This document shows positions 19,943-20,468 of a stretch of 35,526 nt of DNA, in pieces. The notes beneath the pieces are model-generated. The model was not told the DNA's origin. It saw only the letters and a list, made by a program, of their open reading frames with translations, and made no database searches. Each line of letters opens with the position of its first letter. The stretch's first letter is position 1. Origin of the DNA: Spirochaetota bacterium (GTDB lineage: Bacteria > Spirochaetota > Spirochaetia > Treponematales > UBA12059); contig JAKLDN010000012.1 of assembly GCA_022703505.1 (NCBI GenBank), positions 1 through 35,526 on the forward strand. The letters are read 5' to 3'. Position numbers and translations under genes: made by a program.

Positions 19943-20016
19943 GGGCGCTTGGCTCAGCTGGTCAGAGCGCCTGGTTTACACCCAGGATGTCGGGGGTTCA
20001 AATCCCTCAGCGCCCA
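19943..20016 (+). tRNA. tRNA-Val (anticodon UAC)
   Basis: A 74-base cloverleaf: acceptor GGGCGCT / AGCGCCC with discriminator A, D-arm CTCAGCTGGTCAGAG, anticodon stem CCTGG / CCAGG around the loop TTTACAC (anticodon TAC), and T-arm GGGGG / TCCC region with TTCAAAT loop. The CCA end is not encoded (next bases TAC). Its 3' third is repeated downstream, see the array entry. Confidence 0.95.
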
Positions 20017-20084
20017 TACGAAACCCCGATCGGCCTTCGGCCGGTCGGGGTTTCGTACTTGGGGGGCGCTGAGGGATTTGAACC
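19995..20084 (+). repeat. tRNA-Val 3'-end inverted repeat, unit 1, with terminator-like hairpin
   Basis: The last 21 bases of the tRNA body (19995-20015, T-arm through acceptor) recur in perfect inverted form at 20064-20084. Between them is a second hairpin: arms 20017-20035 and 20039-20057 (start TACGAAACCCCGA), 18 of 19 pairs, loop TTC. The inner hairpin could end tRNA transcription although there is no T run after it. Confidence 0.9.
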
Positions 20085-20186
20085 GAAGCACCGTGGCGAG
20101 CGAATGCGAGCCCGAGGCGCAGGGATGCGCCGAGAGGTGCGGAGGCGGGTCCGAGCCTCGAGACAGGAAGTCGAGAGGTGAGGACC
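20085..20186 (+). other. Structured spacer 1 between tRNA-end units
   Basis: About 100 GC-rich bases with no credible gene. It holds the hairpin GGCGCA - GGGA - TGCGCC (20116-20131) nested between GCACC and GGTGC, and the hairpin CTCGA - loop - TCGAG (20157-20175) with ACAGGAA in its loop. The GGA-in-loop arrangement resembles CsrA-binding hairpins. Confidence 0.55.
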
Positions 20187-20269
20187 AAATCCCTCAGCGC
20201 CCATACGAAACCCCGATCGGCCTTCGGCCGGTCGGGGTTTCGTACTTGGGGGGCGCTGAGGGATTTGAA
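20186..20269 (+). repeat. tRNA-Val 3'-end inverted repeat, unit 2
   Basis: An exact 84-base copy of 19999-20082: the tRNA 3' end from the T-loop to the discriminator, the terminator-like hairpin, and the inverted tRNA end. No tRNA 5' half is present, so this copy cannot make a tRNA. Offset between copies is 187 bases. Confidence 0.92.
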
Positions 20270-20373
20270 GGGTCGGCGCGCCGAGCGGCAGCGAGGTGAG
20301 CGAGCCAGGATGGCGAGCGCGAGCGCCGACCCCGGCCCGGAAGCCCGCGGCAGGATGCCGAGGGCTGGAGGGC
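20270..20373 (+). other. Structured spacer 2 between tRNA-end units
   Basis: About 100 bases, different from spacer 1 in sequence but alike in design. GGGTCGGCGC / GCGCCGACCC (20270-20333) form an outer stem. Within or after it are GCCA - GGA - TGGC (20304-20314) and CGGCA - GGA - TGCCG (20348-20360), both with GGA as the whole loop and CA/TG closing pairs. Confidence 0.55.
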
Positions 20374-20442
20374 AATCCCTCAGCGCCCAACCGAAGAACG
20401 CCGCCGCAAGGCGGCGTTCAACATTAGACACGCTGAGGAATG
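20374..20442 (+). repeat. tRNA-Val 3'-end repeat, unit 3 (degenerate)
   Basis: The left arm AATCCCTCAGCGCCCA (20374-20389) is intact. The central hairpin is replaced by GAACGCCGCC - GCAA - GGCGGCGTTC (20396-20419), a 10-bp stem with a GNRA tetraloop. The right arm is reduced to CGCTGAGGAAT near 20431-20441. Confidence 0.8.
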
Positions 20443-20468
20443 ACGTCGCGCGCATTCCGCTCCCGAGA

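Follow-up and report, generated by a model that had tools for sequence, protein, structure and literature searches.

tRNA-linked repeats with a covarying three-way-junction core behind tRNA and tmRNA genes of Spirochaetota

What is the array of direct and inverted copies of a tRNA 3' end that follows the tRNA-Val gene of a Spirochaetota bacterium of the UBA12059 lineage, and is it peculiar to this locus? The window analyzed here is a stretch of 35,526 nucleotides (assembly GCA_022703505.1, contig JAKLDN010000012.1, positions 1 to 35,526 of the forward strand). A first-pass annotation had described three repeat units downstream of the tRNA gene and had offered three suggestions: a structured RNA, a recombination relic, or a self-propagating repeat that uses the tRNA end. 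The array itself is borne out by the ARAGORN call of the tRNA, by its direct and inverted copies, by its fold, and by the scores of a covariance model (CM) that was built from 11 sequences taken from several loci and genomes. Its neighbours are a PfkB kinase, an AraC/GyrI-type regulator, and an ORF with a DJ-1/PfpI domain.

The tRNA-Val(tac) gene lies on the plus strand at 19943..20016 (ARAGORN; Rfam RF00005, 71.7 bits), and its segment C56-A73 (19999-20016, plus strand) serves as the master copy for the repeats. An inverted-repeat search identified a first spacer hairpin immediately 3' of the gene (20017..20057, plus strand); no terminator-like site was found there and, since it lacks a T-tract, it is not a canonical intrinsic terminator. 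At some other tRNAs, unlike in this array, the first spacer hairpin does carry a T-tract. Next comes an inverted copy of the T-arm/acceptor end (20064..20084, minus strand; 21 nt, 100% complementary), which forms the 5' strand of a closing helix, P1, while the 3' strand of P1 is provided by the first direct copy of C56-A73, an 18-nt match found by direct-repeat search (20186..20203, plus strand). Between them extends the core of unit 1, a branched fold of type B (20072..20194, plus strand; 69.6 bits, E = 3.7e-13), whose predicted structure presents GGA loops at 20121-20126 (AGGGAT) and 20165-20169 (AGGAA) of the plus strand. A second spacer hairpin, identical to the first by repeat search (20204..20244, plus strand), is followed by the second inverted copy (20251..20269, minus strand; 19 nt, 100%) and by the core of unit 2, which is of type A (GAAGGGT..ACCCCGGCCCGGA..GAGGGC; 20259..20380, plus strand) and folds with AGGAT in both of its GGA loops (20307-20311 and 20352-20356, plus strand). 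This core scores 94.5 bits (E = 1.9e-18), being itself one of the 11 seed sequences of the CM. The second direct copy (20374..20389, plus strand; 16 nt exact) precedes a terminal hairpin with a GCAA loop (20396..20419, plus strand), which by sequence and fold is the counterpart of the spacer hairpins, and a degenerate third inverted copy, cgctgaggaat (20431..20441, minus strand).

The direct repeats of the tRNA-Val end thus start at about 19999-20001, at about 20186-20188 and at 20374, and the 84 identical bases that the first-pass annotation had noticed in its units 1 and 2 are an exact repeat (19999-20082 and 20186-20269). Its GCAA-loop hairpin and partial inverted end were also correctly seen, but its count of three holds for two complete units only, the third being the terminal hairpin with the degenerate inverted copy. 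The array is better parsed as two complete units, each consisting of tRNA end, hairpin, inverted end, core and direct end, plus that terminal hairpin; with the boundaries drawn earlier, the stretches left between the units were the cores, which are the conserved structured part. The fold of the region 19943-20460 surpasses those of its dinucleotide shuffles by 15 standard deviations, and the next-best place for the CM in the window after the two cores reaches 15.9 bits. Neither a promoter-like site, between the units or elsewhere in the array, nor a T-tract terminator was found.

The first-pass annotation had proposed looking for tRNA-specific copies behind other tRNA genes of the genome, and the outcome was strongly positive. 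The layout of tRNA end, hairpin, inverted T-arm copy, core and direct copy is present at 15 of the 44 tRNA genes and at the tmRNA gene; each of the 15 tRNA loci carries copies of its own tRNA end, some units being truncated. A CM search of this genome returned 14 places. In the phylum as a whole, matches were obtained in 44 of 296 Spirochaetota genomes, representing 22 of 139 genera. Among the 182 matches in the loci fetched for study, 157 have a same-strand tRNA 3' end no more than 700 nt upstream, usually 40-70 nt away, and these cover 32 anticodons. Four matches lie behind a tmRNA gene, and several of the remainder follow displaced tRNA 3' parts that often start near the anticodon loop, as expected where a genomic island has pushed the former tRNA end away from its gene. 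Most of those left over sit at a contig end or in a short view of the locus. Tandem units number two in the window and up to three elsewhere.

A right-half pattern of the motif was additionally searched in 85,000 species genomes, where it returned chance GC-rich matches of variable length together with a set of fixed 49-50-nt spacing. The latter comes almost entirely from spirochaetes and, where the upstream sequence suffices, is nearly always behind a tRNA gene. The draft genome is GC-rich and in 14 contigs, a setting in which one might invoke an assembly or duplication artefact or chance hairpins. This vanishingly improbable explanation is already refuted: the layout recurs at further tRNAs of the genome and in 43 other genomes, several of the 44 genomes being in one contig, and units score up to 143 bits, whereas GC-rich non-spirochaete control sequences, chosen beforehand for the presence of half the motif, reached at most 22.4 bits. 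Rfam scans of the window and related loci matched the units to no known family, and no description of tRNA-adjacent repeats in spirochaetes was found in the literature searched. This family, spread across the spirochaetes at tRNA and tmRNA genes and marked by covariation in its fold and by loops of the CsrA type, appears to be undescribed in the literature and databases searched. A TLR-like unit was also seen behind tRNA-Ser on contig CAMUXX010000109.1 (L057), which is AT-rich and labelled as an Elusimicrobia MAG (27.6 bits); either the family is more widely distributed, or the contig has been misbinned.

The copies of the tRNA end are precise and specific to the locus. In 103 of 135 cases C56 is the first base of the direct copy, which usually extends to the end of the tRNA gene (N73); the median exact match of this copy is 18 nt to the local tRNA and 5 nt to tRNAs with other anticodons, and a match of at least 12 nt is found for 84.5% of comparisons with the local tRNA versus 0.4% with the others. 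The inverted copy usually reaches U55, with a median match of 11 nt to the local tRNA versus 5 nt to others. Where the T-stem of tRNA-Val has changed among about 20 genomes in the family, the two copies have changed with it. Even the trailer behind the tRNA recurs behind the distal copy: in 41% of 106 units the two share 12 nt or more, versus 0.5%. Reverse transcription primed by a tRNA at a primer-binding site was considered and, on inspection of the loci, rejected, as the inverted copies reproduce the gene sequence without the TGG that a CCA end would give. The copies carry no CCA, in which they differ from the E. coli repeats treated below, since none is encoded in the tRNA genes seen here.

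This tracking of the local tRNA, the recurring trailer and the tandem, nearly identical units all speak for a repeat that is maintained at the level of DNA and has no selected RNA product, its structure being a by-product or a selfish feature. Under such a reading, tRNA end, hairpin and inverted end would be quasi-palindromes homogenised by template switching during replication, and recombination between the 18-nt copies would amplify and lose units. Each unit has a three-way-junction core, about 120 nt long in the window, in which P1, made of the inverted T-arm copy and the direct copy of C56-N73, encloses a branched arm P2 with hairpins P2a and P2b, and an arm P3. Across 125 distinct matches, 86.4% of the cells at paired positions can pair, versus 56.4% after shuffling, and the covariation is 0.649 versus 0.156 for shuffled alignments (0/500) and at most 0.097 for slid partners; this alignment was fitted to the CM, and a MAFFT alignment of the 11 seeds gives the same picture. 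In the orthologous Val unit of two species of one genus, two pairs are fully compensated, one has changed from G-U to G-C, four changes fall at unpaired positions, and none breaks a pair.

The unpaired loops are conserved as well. In P2b, 97% of the loops contain GGA and the usual form is C[A(N)GGAN]G, while the P3 loop is C[AGGAN]G-like with GGA in 73% and C[ACGAN]G in 22%; the closing C-G pair is present in more than 95% of the loops. Across genera, loop sequences, lengths and junctions have been kept while the stems have diverged. This conservation, the compensated pairs at the Val locus and the position of the units behind stable-RNA genes on the same strand argue against an origin in DNA processes alone. 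On the other side, the stems are nearly perfect Watson-Crick helices with few G-U pairs. Mismatched cells comprise 4 G-U and 7 A-C in P2b and 13 G-U and 4 A-C in P3, as compared with 56 G-U and 1 A-C in the acceptor stems of nearby tRNAs. As selection on the RNA strand alone should give more G-U than A-C, P2b and P3 bear little signature of such selection. The stems behave like nearly perfect palindromes, and template-switch correction of DNA could be an alternative keeper of the pairing. Owing to this low G-U bias and to the persistence of units in a genome without detectable csrA, described below, we retain the DNA-level repeat as a minority reading of real weight. Among the three suggestions of the first-pass annotation the structured RNA has nevertheless become the best supported, through phylum-wide covariation and compensatory changes at one locus within a genus, while a self-propagating repeat using the tRNA end is still to be reckoned with.

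A further alternative is that the units are non-autonomous mobile elements or attachment relics that an integrase or a transposase acting in trans inserted at the T-loop of tRNA genes. The sharp U55/C56 boundary with its 18-nt copy of the tRNA end, the many tRNA targets, and a RAYT gene inside one unit at tRNA-Gly are all in keeping with this idea. As the first-pass annotation had noted, however, there is no integrase nearby: none is present on this contig, and the integrases found in the genome, all on other contigs, include three directly behind tRNA-Met, tRNA-Leu and tRNA-Asn. A linked integrase together with a repeat bounding cargo, the combination by which an attachment repeat is recognized, was not found at the array. 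The genome does contain a bona fide island of about 39 kb (contig C12, about 40.67-80.0 kb; L009 and L096), with a tyrosine integrase directly behind tRNA-Met(cat). At its far end a tRNA 3' half at C12:80022 matches the tRNA-Met at C12:40600 and is followed by a displaced, intact TLR unit, which means that the unit of tRNA-Met has been carried by the island to its far end, some 39 kb away. The repeat of this island starts in the anticodon loop, unlike the C56 start of the units. Moreover, the exact pattern gave no match in 2.9 million viral contigs, tRNA-Val units are common to the family and hence mostly vertically inherited, and a core brought from another tRNA would arrive without an inverted copy of its new tRNA. 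These findings disfavour a recombination or attachment relic, and insertion of a mobile element is improbable.

Mobilisation of the units by RAYTs was likewise rejected. The genome encodes five RAYTs, which have their own GGGACAGAGCT-like repeats nearby, and only one lies within a unit: a RAYT-type Y1 transposase gene interrupts the unit of tRNA-Gly(tcc) as an insertion, apparently in the P2b loop (L043/L050, C8:150164-150710). None of the other RAYTs adjoins a unit in the stretches read.

Other repeats were encountered near tRNA genes. One is about 65-70 nt long and consists of two hairpins joined by a CAATCGNTTCC-like linker. It is inserted in TLR hairpin loops or in the inverted copy of the tRNA, in one case (L144) as a tandem array, and was seen 3' of tRNA-Val at L134, L132 and L144 and, in the host genome, in the units of Leu-cag (L005), Glu-ttc (L036), Glu-ctc (L037), Ala-cgc (L007), Ala-ggc (L019) and Lys-ttt (L012). 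It looks like a separate mobile, REP-like element with a preference for hairpins. Behind tRNA-Thr-ggt (L027), tRNA-Pro-cgg (L002) and tRNA-Cys (L006) there is a different repeat, in which short acceptor-end copies are separated by further hairpins and another hairpin replaces or precedes the T-loop. A palindromic repeat unrelated to the TLRs (GGCTTTTTGGACA ... GGCAGTTTCTAACGTTC...GAACGTTAGAAACTGC ... CCAATAAGT..CGACTTATTGG) recurs behind tRNA-Pro-tgg (L016), tRNA-Met (L035) and tRNA-Ser-gga (L020).

A tRNA-linked layout of this kind was described in Escherichia coli in 1978, and we know of no function of tRNA-linked repeats (TLRs) beyond the in vitro binding of CsrA and Hfq by the rRNA-linked ones. 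As a layout class, TLRs stand in one to five tandem units at each locus. The E. coli TLRs comprise 22 units at ten loci, and their 3'-terminal 18-19 bp are identical to the end of the upstream tRNA or rRNA (PMC8144298). They also supply the precedent for inverted arms that the first-pass annotation, which had regarded these as foreign to attachment sites, did not name (PMC8144298). The E. coli K-12 loci tyrV, lysV, argV and rrnB were fetched as a yardstick. The three units at tyrV have direct copies of 19 nt and inverted copies of 10 nt; at lysV the order is terminator, inverted T-arm, core, direct copy and a repeated terminator; argV has one inverted and one direct copy. The rrnB TLR contains the GGCAGGAC hairpin, and no inverted copy closing the core was found 5' of its direct copy. 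The TLRs of tyrT/tyrV (RtT RNA, Rfam RF00391), lysV and argVYZQ accordingly resemble the spirochaete units in lying 3' of a tRNA on the same strand as tandem units, in sharing their 3' end with that of the tRNA (18-19 nt in E. coli, a median of 18 nt in spirochaetes), and, at tyrV, lysV and argV, in having an inverted T-arm copy that closes the core.

The two sets differ in that the spirochaete units at tRNA loci have a three-way-junction core with two GGA-loop hairpins, and that they occupy about one third of the tRNA genes plus the tmRNA gene as opposed to ten loci in E. coli. The Rfam model of RtT (RF00391) does find three E. coli units, and it detects nothing in the window or in those related loci that were scanned. 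Conversely, when the tyrV locus alone was searched with the spirochaete CM, the tyrV units ranked first (E = 0.04-0.17), while in a larger scan the TLR units were insignificant (E of at least 0.66) and a non-TLR place ranked first. Since the E. coli loci share the arrangement of inverted copy, core and direct copy, we assign the array with high confidence to the TLR type by layout, outside the RtT family and with homology to the E. coli cores not established.

The GGA loops raise the question of a ligand. In vitro selection of CsrA ligands by SELEX gave the consensus RUACARGGAUGU, in which GGA usually occupies the loop of a hairpin (PMC7652899), and in the units GGA stands in hairpin loops closed by C-G, as in CsrA-binding sRNAs, in 97% of P2b and 73% of P3. 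The sRNAs rrA, rrB and rrF of E. coli, which are located between the dual rrn terminators, arise by read-through past the first terminator and processing, and bind CsrA in vitro in a GGA-dependent manner; the repeated 3' end has been suggested to be their processing signal, for example in RrB, while the remaining 19 TLRs, located in tRNA operons, are predicted to lack CsrA binding (PMC8144298). Like the spirochaete units, these sRNAs are TLRs behind a stable-RNA gene and carry a hairpin of this kind, C[AGGAC]G, but they follow 5S rRNA rather than tRNA. CsrB, CsrC and RsmZ also contain a series of hairpins in which C-G closes an (A)NGGAN loop. They differ from the spirochaete units, which are many, scattered behind tRNAs and lack a detected promoter; in addition, CsrC and CsrB assemble 9-18 motifs in one RNA, compared with two per unit. 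The TwoAYGGAY RNA motif, reported from human gut, Gammaproteobacteria and Clostridiales (PMC2864571), is alike in having, judging by its name, two GGA-type terminal loops; the Rfam scan of the window gave no match to it, with an Rfam copy that may not include this model.

In spirochaetes, FliW adjoins CsrA, and Leptospira has no csrB or csrC homologues (PMC8668096); csrA (C13:46238-46396) adjoins fliW in the host genome, too. Whether FliW and sRNAs act together is unknown for any species (PMC7652899). The presence of csrA in 42 of the 44 unit-bearing genomes is uninformative as a discriminating test, because csrA is too common overall (267/296). One genome that is 99% complete and has five unit matches (G215) yielded neither csrA nor fliW. 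There, ACGA replaces GGA in two of the four P2b loops examined, versus 1/125 elsewhere (Fisher p = 0.002, both loops being paralogues), which may reflect relaxed selection on the loops or may mean that CsrA is not the reason why the element exists. On balance, the GGA hairpins make CsrA a tentative candidate, at somewhat less than even chances, for the main ligand of the units.

With the layout, the conserved fold, the conserved loops and the genomic association in hand, we moderately favour the interpretation that the units form a TLR family of spirochaetes whose members are transcribed together with stable RNAs and then processed into small structured RNAs, which are probably ligands of CsrA. 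That the units give rise to a functional transcribed RNA at all is slightly more probable. The absence of a promoter-like site between the units and of a T-tract terminator in the window array suggests that they would be transcribed as a read-through trailer of the tRNA. By analogy with the proposal for E. coli RrB, the duplicated tRNA end and trailer may re-create the context in which the 3' end of a stable RNA is processed, and tRNA-type 3' processing at the copied end would then release RNAs of about 120-140 nt with two GGA hairpins each. Binding of CsrA by these hairpins would tie the availability of CsrA to stable-RNA transcription. A bolder and rather speculative view is that TLRs are ancient, cross-phylum RNAs of stable-RNA trailers, which in spirochaetes constitute a dispersed CsrA sponge with dozens of GGA hairpins. 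If this were true, the activity of CsrA would read out the synthesis of tRNA and tmRNA in a phylum in which it is thought to be controlled by FliW.

The existence of a second and far larger set of TLRs in another phylum turns an enterobacterial oddity into a comparative problem. The covarying fold and the near-invariant loops of the spirochaete TLRs give it a concrete candidate ligand, CsrA, and, if the prediction is true, the units would be candidates for an RNA that antagonises CsrA in bacteria in which FliW is believed to have that role.
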